Shown: piece by piece, positions 8,001 to 63,294 of the stretch
Position numbering within the stretch: position 1 is the stretch's first letter
How the letters are laid out: each line of letters begins with the position of its first letter
DNA from: Cornus controversa
Lineage: Eukaryota; Streptophyta; Magnoliopsida; Cornales; Cornaceae
Length of the DNA stretch: 64,000 bases
Assembly (NCBI GenBank): GCA_026545225.1
Contig: CM048846.1
Span: 90,723,270-90,787,269 of the forward strand
Direction: 5' to 3'
Notes under the pieces: generated by a model
The model's database searches: none
Told to the model about the DNA's origin: nothing
What the model saw: the letters and a program-made list of their open reading frames with translations, nothing else
Translations under genes and position numbers: made by a program

Positions 8001-11000
8001 ATAGAATTTTAATTAAAATCTGACCCACTAATAGGCCTAGACACCGATGTCTATACAACACAATACTGGCACCCCAATTAGACATTTCAGGACCCAAAAA
8101 AAAAGAAATAGATATGATGACAATTTAGAAGTAACAACACAACTACATGAATACATACATATATGTATGCATGTTTGTGTGTGTATATATATAGGCCATT
8201 ACTCAATTTGGTCCCACTAATGCGGTGTCCTATGAGGGATGGACTGGATATAGGCCTAACTTTCGTTATTATTTGCACAAACTAGATGTTCACACACACA
8301 AATAATTGTTTTTCATGATATTTACACATATTTTGGCAAATAAAATCTATCAAATATTTCAAAGATCCAACTTATAATTAAATTTCGTAGGAGAAAACCA
8401 ATGACTATATGTTGGGTTTGTGGCTCAAATTCAGTTGCGGTAGTTTCCTTTTCCGTTTTGGAAGCTTGAAGGCTTGTGGAGCAAGGCTGAAGACTTGGGG
8501 AGGAAGTTGTATATATCTATTTTAGAGTTGTGATTGATTTGGTAACTTCTTGTTAGACAAGCTATGAGAATCCTTGTTCAAGAAGGAATTGTGGTTTGAA
8601 GACTCTATAAAAAGGTAGGGTTAAAGGGAAAACAAAGAGAGAAAGAGGGAGAGGAAAGATGTAAGGGGTTGGTGAGTGTTGTGAGGAGGAGAGGGTATAT
8701 GTAATTCCGGGAGAAAGATGCCAAGAGATAGTGAAAGAGTGTGTGTGGCAGACATGCTTTCCGCGTGTTGTATATTCTCTTCTCAATATAGTAAAATCTC
8801 TATCTCCATGGACATAGCCCTACAGTTGGGTGATCCATGTAAAATATTGTGTTGTGCGTAGATGTGTTTGATTATTATCTTCCTATATGCTTGTGCGATT
8901 GTGGATGTGATGATATGCTTCCGTTATGCCGAACGAAAGGGGAATTAAATTCCCAACACTATATTTCAGGGACATTAACTTTTTTTTCTCAAAAAGAACT
9001 CCAAATATTTGAAACCCTTTTTATACTTTTTCTGAATAATTATACTATAATGCTACACTAGAAATGTCTTACTCATATTAAAAACATGACATGTTCCATA
9101 GTATCCAACATTGGTCCTGCCTATGTGGGGGTCAGTTGGGAGGGACATAATGGATATAGAGCTAGTATTTGCCATTTTTATGTATTATGTACAGCTCATA
9201 GACCCAAGCCAACACTCTCACACTTTTCAACTCAAACTTTTACCACTATATCAAGCTTTTAAATAAAGAATATGTTGGGAAGTTATCATACACGTCTATG
9301 AGATCTGACCATCCAAGAAATATCGGCTTTCGATACAGATACTGCTCCCTTCTCAAAGAATCCATGTCATTAAACGTTTGATATTGCCTAACATCAGCAG
9401 ACAACTAAGATCTTTCATCAACTTGGCTTATACACCAAGTTGCAAGGTAGTTTTTCAGGATACATGGAAGAAATGAAAAAAAAAATGAGAAACAACTTTA
9501 AAGATAATTTACTAAAAAAAAGAACTTTTTAAGCCCAAAATTCAAGCAACTTCATAGATAATGGATATGTCACAAGCAGAAGTAAAGGAAAATTTTGTTT
9601 CTAGTAATAATCATTCTGATTTGCTAGCATTATCAAGCTACATGAGATGATGGCACTCAATTCTTAATGCACTATAAAAACTCTTTAACAGAAAGTGATT
9701 TTCTAATTAAAACCAATCCAGTCAGTTCATACTGTACTCTAGGGTTAAAGTTCTAAACCTCATTTAGAACCTAGTCCTATATATATGCCACTCACACCAA
9801 GGCTACATGTAATTATACATAATTGACTGATAAGTATATATAAATATACATATATATTAGATATTAGATTGTTATTTTCATTGTATTTTTAGCTATGAGG
9901 GCAGAATAGTCTTTTCTCATTTTTTGTTTGGCTATATAAACCCCTTTATATGTATTCTCTTATTATTTTTACTAATAGAAACCCTAGCCCCCTTTTTCTC
10001 TTCTTTTCTCTCTTTGCAATTCTCACATGGTATTAGAGCAATGATCCAAATGAGTTCTTTGATTGGTAATAACAAGGAAGAACTGCACATCCCATCTACG
10101 CGATTCCTCCAGTGCCATGTTGACTACCTTGCTCATAAAGAGGAACATCTTGTTCAGTTTTTGATGGCCCTACATGATGATTTTGAGGGACTTCGGGAAA
10201 ATATTCTGCATCATAATCCCCATCCCCCTGTTGATGAAGTTATAAGTGAACTTGTGGCCGAAAAGACACGACTCAAGACTCAAGCAAGAAAGGGCCCTCT
10301 CCTAGTGCCTAGTCAATCTGTTTTGGCTGTCCCTCCCAAGCCATCTTTGAGCAATCAGACGAGGCTCTCTTCGAAAGTTGGTTTCCATGAATGTAGTTTT
10401 TGTAAGCAGAAAGGTTATTAGAAGACCCAATGTCCCAAATTGTTTAATAAAGCACAACCACCACAACTGCAATGGCGGCAACCCCCCACCTCAGCAACAG
10501 TGGAGGCAACCCCCACCTCTGCAGCAGTGGAGGCAACCCCCACCTCCGCAGTAGTGGTGTTCGGGAGGGCAGTCCCAACAGCGAGTTTATAGGCCTCCAC
10601 AGCCTACCACTACAGCATTTGTACCTGAAGTTGCATCTTCTTTGGATCCCAACATGGACGCTCTTGTAAAACAGTTTCAGTAATTCCTTGCTGCACACCC
10701 ACAGCCATGTGCCATGTCCACTACATCTTCAATAGGTCTGTCATCTCCTAACCCTTTAGGTATGACTAGTGGGTTTTAGACTCTAGCGCCTCTCATCACA
10801 TGTCACCTGATTCATCATCCTTTATATCTATATGTCACTCTACTTCACCTGCATCTGTTATGACTACTAATGGCACTCTCATGCCCTTGGCAGGAGTTGG
10901 TTCTATTCGTACACCTCATTTATCACTTTCTAATATCTATTGCATTCTCAACCTTGCCATGAATCTCATTTCAGTGGGTCAATTATGTGATTCTGGTTAT

Positions 11001-36639: not shown

Positions 36640-37446
36640 TCATCGTTTGATAGGCACCTTACATCGTTTAAATTCGCCAAGAAGTTCATGATCCCGAAAC
36701 CCAACAAGGAATTGGGCAAGTCCTTCAAGAAACAGAGCAGCCTGATAAACATTAGTAGCTGCCATAATCTCTGCAAGAACACTGCTTCGAAGCTTATTCG
36801 CATCCACGAAAACAGCCATCATCTCATCCATCTGTGCCCTCATGGCCTCCCCGAGCCGTTCCTTCTCGCCTTCCTTCCCTTCACACCTCGCCCAATAATC
36901 AACCGCCACTCGGTCCACAAACCCCGCCTGCACATTCCTCACCCGACCCACCAATGACGGCACCATCAGCCTCAACCCACATTCAATCTGCTCGATTCGG
37001 GTCATCAGATCCCTCGATGGGCTCTTCCACGCCATCGCAACATTCCAGGGCTTATCGAAGAATTCACAACCTTCCCCAATTTCAATGCCTCCATCATCGT
37101 TATCGTCGTCGTCAAGAGATGATCTGAGGAGGTTGATGTAGATGTAGGGGTGGAAATCGCCGAGCCAGAGGAAGGGTTTTTCGAGGGAATTGCGCCAGTC
37201 GGGGTAGAGAACCTGAGCGACGTCGTGAGAGGCGGCGAGGTCTAGGGCATCGAAATAGGCCCGGAAGTGGCGGTAGATCATTTCGACATGGGCGGAGAGG
37301 AGACTGTGGGAGAGAGAATCCGAGGACATGGAACGGCGGAGGTGGGGGAGGAGGGTGTTCTTGAGGGTTACGATCCATTCGGCGTAGTAGTCCTTGAATG
37401 GGCGTGTGGTCTTCTTGCGACCGAAGAGAGCTGTTGGGTGATTCAT
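36640..37446 (-). CDS. INP1: DOG1-domain protein, INP1-like (pollen aperture factor), 268 aa
   Basis: A single-exon gene. The protein opens MNHPTALFGRKKTTRPFKDY and continues with the DOG1-domain pattern: an aromatic YYAEW motif, a central HFRAYFDAL region (about residues 60-68), DVAQVLYPDWRNSLEKPFLW and a C-terminal helical part with AQMDEMMAVF and LAQFLVGF. It has no bZIP region, which excludes TGA factors. An acidic run (DDDDNDDGGIEIGE, about residues 112-125) interrupts the domain. Length, absence of introns and the acidic insert fit INAPERTURATE POLLEN 1, which marks sites on the microspore surface where pollen apertures form. DOG1 membership is secure, the INP1 identity less so. The gene is much more GC-rich than its surroundings, which creates long opposite-strand shadow frames. 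A GA/TA microsatellite lies 80 bases upstream of the start. Confidence 0.85.
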   Translation of the reverse strand: MNHPTALFGRKKTTRPFKDYYAEWIVTLKNTLLPHLRRSMSSDSLSHSLLSAHVEMIYRHFRAYFDALDLAASHDVAQVLYPDWRNSLEKPFLWLGDFHPYIYINLLRSSLDDDDNDDGGIEIGEGCEFFDKPWNVAMAWKSPSRDLMTRIEQIECGLRLMVPSLVGRVRNVQAGFVDRVAVDYWARCEGKEGEKERLGEAMRAQMDEMMAVFVDANKLRSSVLAEIMAATNVYQAALFLEGLAQFLVGFRDHELLGEFKRCKVPIKR

Positions 37447-37521
37447 CCATGAAGAATCAAGTAATTAGCATTCTAGGTTTCCTGAAGAAAGTGAAAGAAA
37501 CAGAGGAAATTGTGTGTGTGT

Positions 37522-55711: not shown

Positions 55712-56298
55712 GTCTTATTCTCTCTCCTATGTTACATTAATTCATTCAACTTAAGTTTAAGCTGAATTTAAATGACAATTTAATATGAGGAGAGACAATG
55801 TAATTACTGTATTTTTTTAGTCTCTTTAAAATAGCACATGGGTTTTTGTAAGAAAGAGACAGAGGAAAAGAAAGATAGGCACGCAATTAAGAGAGGAGAA
55901 GTCATTTTGACAATTACCTTTGTTAAATAAATATCTAGTTAGGAGTAGATATGGTCACATAAAAAAGGACGGATGATGTGAAAGATAACGATTTATCATT
56001 CATTTAGCCTACTTGAAGTTGAATGAATTAATGTAACATACGAGTAGAACTATTCCTTTGAGTATACGTAACTATTTCACATGAGTTTTTGTAAGAAAGA
56101 GACTGAGAAAAAGAAAGTATGCACACAATTAAGGGAAATGTAGTCACTTCAACCATTGCATTTGTTAAATAAATATCAAATTAGGAGTAGACATGGTCAC
56201 ATAAAAAATGATTGATGATATGAAAGATAACGATTTATAATTTATTCAGCTTACTCGAAGTTGAATGAATTAACGTAACATACGAGAGAGAATAAGAC
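55712..56298. mobile_element. MITE-like element with internal direct duplication
   Basis: The terminal inverted repeats (GTCTTATTCTCTCTC...TATGTTAC at the left; the complementary GTAACATACGAGAGAGAATA at the right) are about 45 bases long. Inside are two direct copies of about 215 bases, 55834-56049 and 56076-56287, each starting TTTTTGTAAGAAAGAGAC and ending AACATACGAG. The right end directly abuts the LTR-like sequence at 56299. Confidence 0.7.
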
Positions 56299-56565
56299 TG
56301 TACACACAAATTTTGTGTCCGAAAATCTAAGAACGAAAATGAGTAACAAATAATCAATTTTATTAATTTCAGAAAAATGGGTACAATTCTCTGTGGTCGA
56401 TTCTTTTACAACAAAAATTCTTCCTCTGATTTAATTTCCTTGATATTTGGTGCAAAGGCTTCAAAAGCTTGTTCTTAAACCGGTTGTGATAAGCTTTCTT
56501 CAAATCTTCAAGATTGAGGAAGGCTTGACTGAATTTTTGATTGAGGGTCGATAAGGCTTGATCTC
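56299..56565 (-). repeat. Left piece of an older LTR-like sequence
   Basis: Starts TGTACACACAAATTT (an LTR end in minus orientation) and is colinear with 62305-62571. It is cut at GATCTC by the gypsy-type insertion and resumes at 62106. Confidence 0.75.
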
Positions 56566-56752
56566 TGTAAATAAGGGTATAAAGGACGAGAAAGAAACCA
56601 TGCTAAAAACGTTCTTGGAAAGCTATAAGGGAGGAAAAGCTATAAGGAAGGAAGAAGGGTTTCTTTGCGGACGTACCCGCAGAAAAGGATAACTGCTATA
56701 AGGAAGGAAGAAGGGTTTCTTTGCGGACGTACCCGTAGAAAAGGATAACTGC

Positions 56753-56775
56753 GCGCGGGAACATCATTCCCGCGC
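56753..56775. repeat. Perfect 9-bp GC-rich hairpin in the LTR
   Basis: GCGCGGGAA, a CATCA loop, then TTCCCGCGC. It is conserved in the 3' LTR near 61000-61020 with one change at the edge. Confidence 0.85.
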
Positions 56776-56793
56776 ATGGGTTAAACACTTGGG

Positions 56794-56960
56794 GACATTT
56801 CCTCTCGTAGGGACCACCTCCCCGCGTAGGGACACCTCTCCCCACGTAAGGATACCACCTCCCCGCGTAGGGACACCACCTTCCCTCTTAGGGACACCTC
56901 TCCCCACGTAGGGACATACCTCCCCGTGTAGTGACACCACCTCCCCGCGTAGGGGCATTT
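56794..56960. repeat. Minisatellite within the 5' LTR
   Basis: Tandem 20-24-base units built on CACCTCCCCGCGTAGGGA. The 3' LTR has the same array (about 61038-61183), about one unit shorter, so copy number has drifted since insertion. Confidence 0.85.
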
Positions 56961-57876
56961 CTGCAAGATGACCCCCAGGGCCAACAAGGGATTGGCAAAC
57001 ATACAGGTATAAAGGGAGTGATGGATTGGGGGCAATCCTCTCTGATGGGTATGTTATGGTTAGTAGTTGGATGATATTTTTTCGGGACCAATTCTGAGAA
57101 GAGCATGTTTCCATAAAACACCTCTAAACTAACAATCATGGTATATTCTCAAGGGTTACAAGGAACCATGGATGAATGGGCCGTTATGTGGCTTGTCAGC
57201 TCATAACCCCGAGTGGTTGTCCTTATAACAGGGACTATGTAGAAGACTATTAATTTCTCTCCTTAATATGGAAAGTAACTTGTCGCGACGTTACTTCCAA
57301 CATTGAGAAGTGAAAATTAACATGAGGGTACGGTGTCCCACAGATCATTTTAGGCACAGGTACAGGCTTTGATATGGTCTGGGAGATCATAGTGTCATAA
57401 TGAAGCATATGACGTCATGGTCCCAGGCGGAAAGGTGGGTTGAGTGTGGTATGGAGGATTGAGAGGAAGGCTAGTTAGGCCATGAGCATCTGAAGCTGTG
57501 CTAGCGTGACTCTACGCGGGCACCATCACAGTGTTTCCAGCGTGTATGATTAAACCCGCGAGGGGTATAGGGGCATGGTTATAACCAAGGGTGGTGAAGG
57601 AAGGGATACGCGGCCAAGTGCCACGTAGGATGACAGCTGTCATAAGCCCCATGCCTGAGGCCTATAAATACCCCTTGGCATGGTGACATGTGGATCATTC
57701 TGGTGCCCCCTCCCTCTCCTAATCACTCTTGCTTTCTCTCTCTCCCACCTAGCACCCAGCTTACATTCCCATTGTTGATTCTCAATTACTTTATCAGCTT
57801 AATTCTTCTTAATACACTCAGTCCAATCCTGTGATAGTCATTCCTTTTAGTAAGAACATTTTCTACCTATTTACAA

Positions 57877-57896
57877 TTGGCAGCTCCACTGGGGGG
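57877..57896 (+). other. Primer-binding site of the gypsy-type element
   Basis: TTGGCAGCTCCACTGGGGGG lies one base after the LTR end. It resembles the TGGCGACTCCACTGGGG type seen after many gypsy 5' LTRs. The matching tRNA was not determined. Confidence 0.6.
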
Positions 57897-57909
57897 GATT
57901 GTCTTTCAC

Positions 57910-58923
57910 ATGGCTGGTCAGAATATTGTCAAGCGAAAAGGAAAACAAACAGCATCAGCTCCTCATATGCCTGATTCGGCCAATCCTGTCCCCCCACAAC
58001 CACGTAAGATTCAAAGGCGACAAGGTTCATCAATAGTCAACACACCACAAGGATCTCAACATGTTACTCCCATTATCCTACAAGTTCTTGCAAGTATTTA
58101 AAAAACGCAGGTACAAATCTTGCGATGTCTGAAGGACCAATGGACAATCCCAATCCCGAGAGAACAATCTCCGGTTGCTGACCACCGTCCATCACCTCAA
58201 TTAGTGATTTCTCAATACTTCGAGGACGATCCTTCTGGCAAATTAGCAGAGCCTATTGAATGCACTCGACGACAGACTGCTAACTCATTTGTAACCATTG
58301 AACAACTACAGGCCATTCTCAATTCGAAAAAAGACTTAATAACTGATGTTGAGATCCCACCACCATATAATCCTGCTATATTGTTGTTACTATATCCGGA
58401 AGAATATACGCCGCCGAAGTTCAAGCAGTTTGATGGAAAAGAAGGAGATGCACGCAAGCATGTGGCGCGTTTTATAGACGCGTTGGGAGCTCACCAAAAT
58501 AACGAGCATCTAAAATTCTCAAAATCTCTTACAGGAAGGGCTTATACCTGGTATATAAATTTAATGTCAGATACAGTCTTAACTTGGTCAGAAATGCTGG
58601 TCAGATTTTATGAAAAGTTCTTCACCGCATAGGAGCGAGTAACAATGCTATCACTAACTCGCCACAGCCACAAGCAAAGATTGGGAGAGGAAGTAGCTGT
58701 ATATGTTAAGTGTTTTCGCAAGACGTCATTAAAATACTTTGAACCAGCCTCAGAAGAGCAATTGATAAAAATCTGTGTCGATGGCATGCTCAGAGAGTAT
58801 CGAGTACATCTGGTTAACCATGAAATCAAAACTTTCTCAGCTCTAATTAATAGTGCCCGACGACTTGAAGAGATTATTCCACCACCCGCCAAGGGAAATA
58901 TGTCTCTGTTAGGGCCATCTTGA
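57910..58923 (+). pseudogene. Gypsy-type gag, one frame with two stops
   Basis: The first ATG is at 57910. The same frame stays open for 338 codons except for a TAA at 58099-58101 and a TAG at 58630-58632, with no frameshift. The central part has the Retrotrans_gag pattern: PPKFKQFDGKEGDARKHVAR, then a YTWYINL motif, then W..M...F...F. A QR.GE.V..YV segment and a terminal RRLEEIIPPP follow. The frame ends at a TGA (58921-58923) that already lies in sequence belonging to the antisense PMD gene, so the gag end was cut by that junction. It has no zinc knuckle. Confidence 0.88.
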
Positions 58924-60520
58924 GGGCGACCTTCAAAGATGAAGCGGTCTAACCAATAAACTAGGAAGGCTGCAAGTTCATATTCTTTACCAAATTATGG
59001 GCCATCCACATACTGTTTGGCACGTTGACTTTAACGAAACTCTTTGGTCTTCTTCTCATAATCGTGAAAAAAGTAGCGGTACCAAGAAGTATATGTAAGC
59101 TTTGGAGATTTGACTTTGGGACTACTTTTTAGTTTTTTTTAGAGCCCTTGAAAATTAAGTCCAAACGCATGGCCTCATCCGTAAATGCCTCTAAAGTATC
59201 TCGGAGAGATAGAACTTCTGAGGAAACTATGGGGGCATCGACTTTTCTTGAGCACAAGACAGGCAATCTGAAGAGCACAACCACGTCTTTTAGTGTGGGG
59301 GTAAACTCACATCAGGAAGTCACAAAAGTGTGATGTGTCAAGCTCCACCGCGAGATGATGGAAGTAAATCCGTCGGTGTCCCTCTTAACAGATTACTTGG
59401 AGAAAAGCTTAACGGACTGAAGGATCTTTGTCTTTTGAAGAATCTCATAGTACCTGGGACCCCTGAGAATATAGTGCAACCATTCAGTCCAGTCCATGGT
59501 TGCACCCATGTAGGACCCATATTTTGTAAAGCTGAAAGGGTAATCTCCACGTTCCAACCGAAGACGTGGAATAAACTCAGGAATAACAGCAAAGTTTTCC
59601 AAGCTATCATCTATATTTAGTATCACAAGGTCATCGAACACCTCCATATCAGGTATGAAATCCTCCATTGAACTCTAGAAGTAGTCGTGCTTTTTTTCAA
59701 AGAAGGGCGCCTTATAGGGATGGCAATTTTGTCCGCCCCGTCGAATTTTCGCCCCGTCCCGCCCCGTTTAGGGAGGGTATGGGAGCCATTTTTTTTCCGT
59801 AGGGGCGGGTTTGGGAAAAAAAATCAAAACCCGCCGCGGGTACGGGGCGGGTTCGGGACTCTATAATAACCCGCCCCGTACCCGCCCCACCCCGCCTATA
59901 TATTTTATTATTATAAATATATTTATATGTATATATATATATATATACACAAATTATAATTTTACTTTTGGTTATATTAAGACTTATGTTTTTATTTTAT
60001 CTTTTTGTTGTATTAACACTTCTTTAATTGTTGGATCAAACTTGTTACTAAGTTATTTAGTTGTGAAATATATTTTCTGTAATAGACTATTTAATTGTGA
60101 AATCTTATCATTTTACTTCTTAAACAAGGGTTATACTATTTTGAATTTAATAGTATCAAACTTAATACTACCCACTAGGCTCGTATTTTTTAAAAAATCA
60201 ATTTTTATTGATGTTTGATGTGGTTACAATTTTGTGGGGAGGGGCCCCGCCTCGTCCGTCTCGTTCCACCCCTTTTGAAATTTTAAACGGGGCGGGGCGG
60301 GGCGGGGACGGGGTGGGGTTTCTCCCAACGGGGCGGGGATGGGTTTTGAAATTCCATCCCGTTTCAAACCCGCGGCGGGTTTGGTAATTGTGTTGAAGGT
60401 AGCGGGGCGGGGACGGGTTTAGGCAAACCCATGCCGTACCCGCCCCGTTGCCATCCCTAGCGCCTTATGCCACTCAAAAGAAGGAGGAACTGGGGGAACC
60501 ACTCCATTAGTCAAAGTCAT
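58893..60520 (-). pseudogene. Captured plant mobile domain (PMD) gene, antisense, broken
   Basis: On the minus strand an ATG at 60520 (MTLTNGVVPPVPPSFEWH) starts a frame. After removal of the hAT insertion (59715-60459 plus one target copy) it continues with MEDFIPDMEVFDDLVILN, PFSFTKYGSYMGATMDWTEW and LHYILRGPRYYEIL. PMD signature blocks follow in order: SRWSLTHHTFVTS, a TGA in place of the usual Trp, CEFTPTLKDVVVLFRLPV, then SWYRYFFHDYEKKTKEF and ELAAFLVYWLDRFIF. The match reaches about 58893, inside the gag frame. Several in-frame stops and at least one frame change make it a pseudogene. PMD proteins occur both as plant genes (MAIN/MAIL1 type) and within transposable elements. Confidence 0.82.
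59715..60459. mobile_element. hAT-type MITE with perfect 8-bp target duplication
   Basis: 745 bases with the 12-base terminal inverted repeats TAGGGATGGCAA and TTGCCATCCCTA. It is flanked by GCGCCTTA on both sides (59707-59714 and 60460-60467). The subterminal regions are very GC-rich, made of CCCCGCCCCG / GGGGCGGG arrays, around an AT-rich core. It has no transposase. An 8-bp duplication is the hAT signature. It interrupts the captured PMD gene. Confidence 0.95.
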
Positions 60521-60662
60521 TTGCTTCTTCTTAGTCAGGGTAATACACAAGATGATGAGGTGTTCGAGAAGTTAACAGAGTAAAGAAAGCAAAGGAGAAG
60601 AAACAAGGAAGGAAAGAGAAGTAAGAAAGGAACAAAGTGAAAAAAATACCCAAAAATAGTGG

Positions 60663-60671
60663 CATATATAG
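60663..60671 (-). promoter_or_regulatory. TATA box of the captured PMD gene
   Basis: CTCTATATATGCC on the minus strand, about 145 bases upstream of the PMD ATG, followed by a pyrimidine-rich leader (60560-60640). It suggests that the gene was captured with its own promoter. Confidence 0.5.
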
Positions 60672-60855
60672 AGCATTGAAGGTGCGGGAACCGAAGTGAC
60701 ACGAGCGATTACTCAGCAGTCGAACAACTGCTTAGGCCAGCCGCATATGGCACTCTACCCATAAAGGGATGATTGACTCCAAAACAAGTGCTCGAAAGAA
60801 GGAAGAAGATAGGCACAGGGAGTTACAAACAAATGTTCTCATAAAAATATTATTT

Positions 60856-60868
60856 GCAAGGGGGCAAA
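60856..60868 (+). other. Polypurine tract of the gypsy-type element
   Basis: GCAAGGGGGCAAA directly precedes the 3' LTR start TGTAAATAAAGG. Confidence 0.7.
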
Positions 60869-62100
60869 TGTAAATAAAGGTATAAAGGATGGGAAAGAAA
60901 CCATGCTAAAAACATTCTTGGAAAGCTATAAGGGAGGAAAAGCTATAAGGAAAAAAGAAGGGTTTCTTTGTAGATGTACCCCAGAAAAGGATAACTGCGC
61001 GCGGGAACATCATTCCCGCGTATGGGTTAAGCACTCAGGGACATTTCCTCGATTAGAGACCACCTCCCCGCATAGGGACACCTCTCCCCACGTAGGGATA
61101 CCACCTCCCCGCGTAGGGACACCTTTCCCCGCGTAGGGACATACCTCCCCGCGTAGGGACACACCTCCCCACGTAGGGGCATTTCTGCAAGATGACCCCC
61201 AGGGCTAACAAGGGATTGACAAGCATACAGGTATACAGGGAGTGATGGGATTGGGGGCAATCCTCTCTGACGGGTATGTTATGGTTAGTAGTTGGATAAT
61301 GTTTTTTCGGGACCAATTCTGAAAAGAGCATGTTTTCATAAAACACCTCTAAACTAACAATCATGGTATATTCTCAAGGGTTACAAGGAACCATGGATGA
61401 ATGGGCCGTTATGTGGCTTGTCAGCTCATAACCCCGAGTGGTTATCCTTATAACAGGGACTATATAGAAGATTATTAATTCCTCTCCTCAATATGAAAAG
61501 TAATATATCGTGACATTACTTCCAACATTGAGAAGTGGGAATTAGCATGAGGTTACGGTGTCTCACAGACCATTTTAGGCACAGGTACATGCTGTGATAT
61601 GGTCTGGGCGATTAAGGTGTCATAATGAAGCATATGACATCATGGTCCCAGACGGGAAGGTGGGTTGAGTGTGGTATGGAGGATTGAGAGGAAGGCTCGT
61701 TGGACCATGAGCATCTGAAGCTGTGCTAGCATGACTCTACGCGGTCACCATCACAGTGTCTCTCGCGTGTATAATTAAACCCGTGAGGGGTATAGGGGCA
61801 TGGTTACAACCAAGGGTGGTGAAGAAAGGGATACGCGGCCAAGTGCTACATAGGATGACAGCTGTCATAAGCCCCATGCCTGAGGCCTATAAATACCCCT
61901 TGGCATGGTGACATGTGGATCATTCTGGTGCCCCCTCTCTCTTTGAATCACTCTTGCTTTCTCTCTCTCCCACCTAGAACTCAGCTTACATTCTCATTAT
62001 TGATTCTCAATTACATTATCAACTTAATTCTTCTCAATACACTCAGTCCAGTCCTGTGATAGTCATTCCTTTTAGCAAGAACATTTTCTACCTATTTACA
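60869..62100 (+). repeat. 3' LTR of the gypsy-type element
   Basis: 1232 bases, starting TGTAAATAAAGG and ending CTATTTACA. It is 78 bases shorter than the 5' LTR, which is explained by the single copy of the 56-bp segment and about one fewer minisatellite unit. Confidence 0.92.
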
Positions 62101-62105
62101 ATCTC

Positions 62106-62304
62106 GAACTGTGGGTTGAAGGTCTTCGAAGAAAAATGACACTTGTGTGGCGTGCTTGTTGTTCTTCGTCTTCAAATTCTTTGAGGATTTAAGGTCTTTG
62201 AAGTAGAACGACACTTATGTGGCGTACTTGATATTCTTCATCTTCAGATTCTTCATTGGTTGAAGGTCTTAGAAATAGAACAACGCTTATGTGGCGTAGA
62301 AATT
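62106..62304 (-). repeat. Right piece of the older LTR-like sequence
   Basis: Continues the sequence broken at 56565: TGTGGGTTGAAGGTC matches GGTGGGTTGAAGATC at 62575. It holds three units of a roughly 70-bp minisatellite marked by ACTTGTGTGGCGTGCTTG. Similarity to the neighbouring copy stops near 62297, just before the next LTR starts. Confidence 0.7.
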
Positions 62305-63294
62305 TGTACACACAAATTTCGTGTCCAAAAATCTATGAACGAAAATGAGTAACAAATAATCAATTTCATTAATTTAAGAAAAATGGGTACAATTTTCTGT
62401 GGTCGATTCTTTTATAACAAAAAATCTTCCTCTGATTTAACCTCCTTGATGTTTGGTACAAGGGCTTCAAAAGCTTGTTCTTGAACCGGTTGTAATGTGT
62501 TTTATTCAAATCTTTAAGATTGAGGAAGGCTTGACTGAATTTTCGATTGAGGACCGATAGAGCTTGATCTCAACGGTGGGTTGAAGATCTTTAAAGAAAA
62601 ATGACACTTGTGTGGCATGCTTGTTGTTCTTCGTCTTTAGATTCTTCAAGGATTTAAAGTCTTTGAAGTAGAACAACACTTGTGTAGCGTGCTTGAAGTT
62701 CTTCGTCTTCAGATTCTTCAATAGTTGAAGGTCTTAGAAGTAGAACGACACTCGTGTGGCGTGCTTGATATTTTTCATCTTCAGAACTTTGTTGGTTGAA
62801 GAACTTAGAAATAGAACGACACTCATGTGGCGTGCTTGATGTTCTTCATATTCAGAACTTCGTTGGTTGAAGGTCTTAGAAGTAGAATAACACTTGTGTG
62901 GCGTGCTTGATATTTTTTATTTTCAGAACTTCGAGTGTTAGTTGAGTCAGAGGTTCGGCAGAGCTTTTGTGTTCTCTTGATCTCTCTGTCTGTGTCCCCT
63001 GAATGTGTAGGGTGATCTTATATTTATAGGCGAAAAGGGTAGGGGTTTAATTTGGTAACTATTCATTAATTGTGCCAACTTCCATGAATAAAGAGATTTT
63101 GCCTCATTTTATATGGAAATATATTCAAATTTAAATTTGAATTGTCACTCATTTTTTTTAAAGGCCTGAACTTTCAGGATTTTGACTCGTGTCCATTGAC
63201 GGGACCCGCAATCATAGAATTTAATTAACCAAGAATGTTTGACTTGTTGACCAATCGGACGGTAATTAGACCATCATAAATTTATATTTCTACA
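62305..63294 (-). repeat. LTR-like sequence, about 990 bp, minus orientation
   Basis: Read on the minus strand it starts TGTAGAAATATAAATT and ends GTGTGTACA, with TGTA/TACA inverted ends. It has a TATA box (TATAAATA at 63021-63028) and, downstream of it, about five units of the 70-bp minisatellite (62572-62940). AATT lies on both sides (62301-62304 and 63295-63298). It is most likely a retroelement LTR, possibly solo. A full element extending past the right edge is not excluded. Confidence 0.6.

Follow-up and report, generated by a model that had tools for sequence, protein, structure and literature searches.

Here, we describe a long terminal repeat (LTR) element that occupies positions 56566–62100 of a 64,000-nucleotide stretch of the Cornus controversa genome (NCBI GenBank assembly GCA_026545225.1, contig CM048846.1, positions 90,723,270 to 90,787,269 of the forward strand; henceforth, the window) and that consists of two LTRs, a gag frame and, on the opposite strand, sequence of the plant mobile domain (PMD). 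The element has the paired LTRs, 5-bp target duplication and polypurine tract of an LTR retrotransposon; its LTRs, 1310 bp on the 5' side and 1232 bp on the 3' side by sequence reading, have the ends TGTAAATA...TATTTACA. The limits of the element and the ATCTC duplication around it, as given in a preliminary description made from the sequence alone, are borne out by direct reading and by alignment of the flanks, which, when joined, match the second unit (62406–62720) of a host repeat with a 1-base gap at the insertion point. The host repeat hit by the element is built of approximately 72-nt units and 267-nt blocks and is located at 62107–62931 and 56299–56565; a probable miniature inverted-repeat transposable element (MITE) adjoins the element at 55712–56298 (41-nt inverted repeats, 95% complementary, with 505 nt between them). 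The two LTRs are separated by a Kimura two-parameter (K2P) distance of 0.075 over the 1228 sites compared; at 1.3e-8 substitutions per site per year, which we take to be the rate, the insertion of this copy would date back about 3 million years, which makes it an older one. The features of the element are as follows.

56561..56565, no strand: target site duplication ATCTC, left copy (direct reading; the repeat unit 62406–62720 is the empty-site comparison)
56566..57875, plus strand: 5' LTR, 1310 bp (sequence reading, LTR pair comparison)
57878..57895, plus strand: putative primer binding site, directly after the 5' LTR (a similar stretch lies at the same place in L049, see below)
57910..58923, plus strand: gag frame, truncated at the junction, with in-frame stops TAA at 58099–58101 and TAG at 58630–58632 (frame reading, profile search, tblastn)
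58884..58912, no strand: putative deletion junction between gag and antisense PMD, at about 58898/58899 (genome search; the match of L049 resumes in its PMD part)
58884..59714, minus strand: main part of the antisense PMD remnant, in broken frames, approximately profile positions 7–138 of 347 as judged by family copies (profile search, tblastn)
59707..59714 and 60460..60467, no strand: left and right copies of the 8-bp target duplication of a MITE, GCGCCTTA (by eye)
59715..60459, no strand: MITE, 745 bp, with terminal inverted repeats TAGGGATGGCAA, inside the PMD part and foreign to the retroelement (sequence reading)
60461..60538, minus strand: 5' end of the PMD remnant, upstream of the MITE, residues 7–32 of the PMD frame of the relative described below (tblastn)
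60858..60868, plus strand: putative polypurine tract beside the 3' LTR (sequence reading)
60869..62100, plus strand: 3' LTR, 1232 bp (sequence reading, LTR pair comparison)
62101..62105, no strand: target site duplication ATCTC, right copy (sequence reading)

The gag part is a single plus-strand frame that covers only residues 2–332 of the 723-residue gag-protease open reading frame (ORF) of a pol-bearing relative, L049/L050, and its match to PF03732 (0.012) is below the Pfam cut-off; the gag of another copy of the same family, L010, passes (3.8e-9). Given the two stops, the 1-kb gag frame of the preliminary description holds in extent but is not an intact ORF. The PMD blocks that had been placed on the opposite strand are indeed both on the minus strand, though in separate broken frames. 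The expected match to the PMD profile was obtained above the cut-off from a family copy, L012 (5.2e-10), but not from the window alone, where the PMD pieces remain below it (E-values of 0.17 and 0.11).

We searched the entire window by tblastn with the proteins of L049/L050 as queries and a threshold of 1e-4. The PMD of the relative matches the window at 1.24e-90, and the window keeps residues 7–266 of 266 of the N-terminal PMD frame of the relative and only residues 1–39 of 173 of the next frame. Reverse transcriptase (RT) and integrase were not found by this search, which was not aimed at pol of unrelated families in the rest of the window; together with the end of the gag-protease match at residue 332, this agrees with the earlier reading that the element contains no protease, RT or integrase. 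The MITE inside the PMD part, presumably hAT-like judging from its 8-bp target duplication, has at least 31 near-full matches in the genome, at 93–97% identity, and is absent from the eight family copies compared (L009–L016), which align across the site.

Short copies and a pol-bearing relative

In the genome searches, the best 40 candidates were scored (40 of 148 for gag and 40 of 127 for PMD), so that the copy numbers given here are lower bounds. The gag–PMD junction is common to at least 10 copies, the window included, in which the matches reach query positions 1051–1055, past window position 58898; the remaining 30 of the 40 scored gag places end at query positions 1008–1028 (58883–58903). 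With nine other places in the genome carrying the junction and a pol-bearing relative present in the same genome, the proposal made from the window, of a family of non-autonomous LTR elements that combine gag with PMD sequence in antisense, is supported, and PMD sequence is found in all 10 copies. Subfamily A (the window and L016) has PMD sequence still in place at the junction; in subfamily B, which comprises 8 of the 10 copies (L009–L015 and L025), about 60 bases of the 3' part of the transfer RNA (tRNA) tRNA-Cys(GCA), on the PMD strand, replace PMD sequence.

In the eight copies L009–L016, LTR sequence flanks the internal region on both sides, although incompletely in L014, with part of the left side in inverted orientation in L015 and with an interruption in L016. 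The LTR pairs are nearly identical in the youngest copies, L010 (99.1%), L011 (99.8%) and L012 (99.6%), followed by L009 (97.1%, 839 bp), L013 (95.9%), L015 (94.9%, 566 bp) and L016 (92.8%, 585 bp); no LTR pair over 300 bp was seen in L014. Target duplications, sought by eye in L009–L013, L015 and L016, are exact in L011, L012 and L016 and have one mismatch in L009 and L010. In L016, the end of gag and the start of PMD are tandemly duplicated internally, such that window query positions 901–1259 match twice.

The pol-bearing relative, cut out as two loci, L049 and L050, is a 12.5-kb copy (C2:86911152–86923645) with an LTR pair that is 98.9% identical. On its sense strand, gag, protease, RT (2.3e-30), RNase H, a second RNase H (RVT_3) and the integrase zinc-binding domain all score above the cut-off, and the integrase core in L049 falls just below it (5.5e-7, 30.2 bits vs 32.6). 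The domains of L049, that is, RVT_1, RT_RNaseH and RVT_3, and then H2C2 and the sub-cut-off rve in later ORFs, follow the order RT – RNase H – second RNase H – integrase that is the rule for the Tat clade (PMC6317226). Between pol and the 3' LTR, there is a long antisense PMD ORF, represented by minus-strand frames of 266 (L050) and 173 (L049) amino acids that join in phase at the locus boundary, both with PF10536 above the cut-off (6.3e-11 for profile positions 7–70 in the 266-residue frame and 3.5e-11 for positions 106–250 in the 173-residue frame). PF10536 in an extra ORF, as in PMD-carrying elements, is thus detected in L012 and L049/L050, with the window pieces below the cut-off.

The junction stretch of the window matches L049 as two separate blocks, 2271–2369 and 9896–9995, so that about 7.5 kb is missing from the window, and the two break regions are alike over about 14 bases (by eye). 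The PMD side of the short form is collinear with that of the pol-bearing element, with PMD, the upstream stretch and the 3' LTR in the same order, and the same holds for another full element, L051. When the best 40 gag places were paired with the best 40 PMD places, same-strand PMD was located at approximately zero distance for 9 of the 40 gag places, 7543–7578 bp downstream for five and 4304 bp downstream for one; the other 25 have no partner among the scored PMD places, although three of these (L025, L029 and L049) do show PMD on direct reading. Within 15 kb, no pair in this set has the wrong order or strand. Such a deletion seems to have happened at least twice: L029 (C2:10625001–10626068 with flanks), which belongs to a more diverged family with gag about 71% identical, has a gag-to-antisense-PMD deletion with other breakpoints and retains more of PMD.

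Two other loci were considered and set aside. L047, tried as the direct parent, has the closest gag outside the family (85%, among the best 40 of 148) and covers gag and most of the protease (residues 114–604), and its integrase matches, at about 30% identity, all lie on the opposite strand; nothing in the next 3 kb beyond it (L053) matches the window pieces. In L048, gag-protease is matched, as is RT at 26–38% identity, and there is no PMD in the 10 kb examined.

Coding constraint in gag and PMD

Third-position ratios were obtained in the frame of the relative, with the PMD copies clipped to the last 700 bp (500 bp for L025) and the tRNA-replaced stretch excluded; the bootstrap intervals, given in parentheses, were obtained by resampling codons and do not reflect the history that the copies share. 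When the pol-bearing copy is compared with the deleted ones, the ratio is 3.10 (2.66–3.70) for PMD and 2.23 (1.89–2.68) for gag. Among the deleted copies, the PMD ratio is 1.10 (0.83–1.47) within subfamily B, 1.10 (0.81–1.47) between A and B and 1.23 (0.65–2.34) within A; the respective values for gag are 1.35 (0.99–1.79), 1.36 (1.01–1.84) and 1.33 (0.83–2.04). As a control, LTRs from seven sequences (the window, L010–L013, L051 and L049) were read in three arbitrary frames, yielding nine values between 0.78 and 1.36. By these ratios, PMD appears constrained at the codon level when the relative is set against the deleted copies, and it shows no constraint since the deletion. The gag of the short form, at 1.35–1.36, looked weakly constrained, but given that the LTR controls reach 1.36, we make no firm claim of selection on it.

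For PMD, the stop counts point in the same direction. In the tblastn matches, PMD contains stops in all 10 copies, 3–12 per copy; the three copies with the most similar LTRs (L010–L012) have 7–9, a count in which a stop may figure twice where the matches in L011 and L012 overlap. There are no stops in gag in these three copies and 2–6 in the other seven. Thus, PMD was dead when the youngest copies moved. The two opposed coding units of the preliminary description do not make up a functional arrangement: PMD is truncated, with stops in every copy and no codon constraint since the deletion, and the gag of the window is itself stopped twice.

A tRNA-derived stretch and mosaic copies

An exact 31-base search of the genome with the tRNA stretch of subfamily B finds 14 places, three of them family copies, vs none for the control. 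The single place that was cut out (L052) is a tRNA-Cys gene according to ARAGORN, with CCA not encoded; for the stretch itself, the tRNA match in Rfam stays below the threshold (19.5 bits vs 29). In seven of the eight subfamily B copies (not L014), the acceptor end is followed by one base, CCA and then element sequence, and because the resumed sequence in subfamily A starts with CA, the argument from CCA amounts to approximately one base. The stretch is possibly a scar of internal tRNA priming, given that its orientation would be accounted for if a mature tRNA had served by error as an internal primer.

L051 (C6:27395000–27401000), the one place read among seven on C6, is a full element with the same junction in which PMD is 88% identical to the window and gag only 69%; its gag is 77.5% identical to that of the pol-bearing copy, and the switch in similarity is located near the 3' end of gag. 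Gag may have been exchanged after the deletion, or two separate deletions may have hit the same sites. Seven same-strand PMD matches, L051 included, lie within about 0.8 Mb (C6:27.13–27.94 Mb, among the best 40 of 127), and, with L051 having the same junction and a different gag, this group may be a local segmental amplification. We regard the tRNA-Cys scar and the mosaic gag and PMD histories as minor novelties. Elsewhere in the window, a 274-amino acid ORF on the minus strand (36640–37464) contains a DOG1 domain (PF14144, 2.2e-20) and is likely a host gene.

Origin of the gag–PMD layout

Given that the pol-bearing relative carries an antisense PMD downstream of pol, the window form can be explained by deletion of pol and most of the PMD domain. 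The window element is, very probably, a pol-deleted, TR-GAG-like non-autonomous derivative of a PMD-bearing Tat-type Ty3/gypsy element, in which PMD appears to have been inherited and then truncated, with no capture in place of pol. The ancestor would have had gag-pol in the sense orientation and, between pol and the 3' LTR, a PMD ORF on the opposite strand. A deletion of approximately 7.5 kb, as estimated from one relative, between short similar stretches in late gag and the PMD gene would have taken out everything from the 3' end of gag through protease, RT, RNase H and integrase to the C-terminal part of PMD; the near-microhomology at the break regions suggests template switching during reverse transcription as the route. 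The short form would have retained the LTRs, the primer-binding region, the polypurine tract and a capsid-length gag and, as suggested by the recent copies without pol, would have multiplied with the enzymes of pol-bearing relatives in trans. The PMD piece, with stops already in the youngest copies, would be a passenger, and the window copy carries a MITE that the other compared copies lack.

Several observations weigh against this scenario. The relative is only about 70% identical to the family in gag and PMD; its pol is scattered over several frames, and the function of this copy is putative. Its 173-residue PMD frame stops at about profile position 250, and positions 275–295 are found in the next frame (0.0056), so that the PMD of the relative may itself be broken. 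Among the scored places (best 40), no pol-bearing copy comes as near to the window element as its own family does, so that the breakpoints are approximate, and only one pol-bearing copy was read through to PMD and the 3' LTR, the 7.5-kb pairs being deduced from positions. The mobilisation in trans is something that we infer rather than observe. Finally, gag is open in the three youngest copies despite up to 5% differing sites and may still be kept, and the gag ratios of 1.35–1.36 among the deleted copies, with intervals of 0.99–1.79 and 1.01–1.84, bear on the same point.

Among the alternatives, the one that fares best, improbable as it is, holds that the truncated antisense PMD or its RNA is kept because it is active, for example, as a dominant-negative fragment or by giving rise to double-stranded RNA. 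The presence of PMD sequence in 10 of 10 copies would fit, as would the antisense transcription reported for other elements with antisense ORFs (PMC7264820), but the lack of codon-position bias among the deleted copies (1.10, 0.83–1.47), the 3–12 stops per PMD match in every copy and the tRNA-derived replacement in 8 of 10 copies speak against a protein, although not against an RNA. It is slightly less plausible still that the antisense PMD of the short form is a working regulator, most likely an antisense RNA, that would provide escape from PMD-linked silencing or compete with the full-length PMD of the helpers, with the tRNA-Cys scar marking an RNA-only subfamily that dropped the protein.

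The interpretation originally offered for the window, that a host PMD gene was taken up by a gag-only element, where it replaced pol in antisense orientation, and was thus mobilised, now seems very unlikely. Host PMD genes do exist (MAIN, MAIL1; PMC7156037) and the window alone shows antisense PMD directly after gag, but a transduced host gene should be absent from pol-bearing sisters, whereas in L049/L050, whose LTRs are related, the same antisense PMD lies beyond pol (a comparison among element PMDs), and the PMD of the window begins mid-domain where the gag match ends; we rejected capture once the relative showed antisense PMD beside pol. Least credible of all is an origin by ectopic recombination or by nested insertion into a gag-only element of a DNA transposon that carried PMD, a Mutator-like element (MULE). 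PMD is found in MULEs as well (PMC9289625), but such an origin is largely contradicted by the collinearity of the PMD side of the short form, and of L051, with the pol-bearing element, the MITE at 59715–60459 being the sole insert seen inside the PMD part.

As a pol-deleted derivative, the window element resembles the TR-GAG elements, 3,147 of which were counted in 195 plants (PMC10025401), in being bounded by LTRs, having gag and no pol, occurring in several copies with their own LTRs (with gag open in L010–L012) and presumably being mobilised in trans; it differs from them in the added truncated antisense PMD remnant and in its gag being cut at capsid length. PMD is the most frequent atypical domain in the screened plant gypsy elements (PMC9289625) and is present in 57% of Ogre elements (PMC6317226). 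PMD-carrying Tat Ty3/gypsy elements share with L049/L050, assigned to Tat by domain order, the second RNase H before integrase and the PMD ORF, whereas the window element is without pol and without the larger part of PMD. ORFs in antisense orientation, located between pol and the 3' LTR, have been described, including in Retand elements, some of which are non-autonomous; defective yet recently active Retand elements have been reported too (PMC7264820, PMC11963269). The latter are likewise deletion derivatives that stay active, with 9 of the 10 defective clusters lacking GAG (two of these also protease) and one lacking RNase H and integrase, but their antisense ORFs mostly encode TRP28, not PMD (PMC11963269). 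MAIN and MAIL1 share the PMD domain and are domesticated working genes (PMC7156037), whereas here it is a broken remnant inside an element. No element combining gag with a truncated antisense PMD was found among the titles and abstract beginnings listed from open-licence papers.

The same antisense PMD provides a natural contrast, appearing constrained when the relative is compared with the deleted copies and unconstrained after the loss of pol, which fits PMD as a working part of the pol-bearing element. The odd layout of gag and an antisense gene can arise without gene capture, if an element in which an antisense ORF is already present loses pol by deletion. The element of the window would then be an ordinary kind of genome parasite, with no captured host gene.

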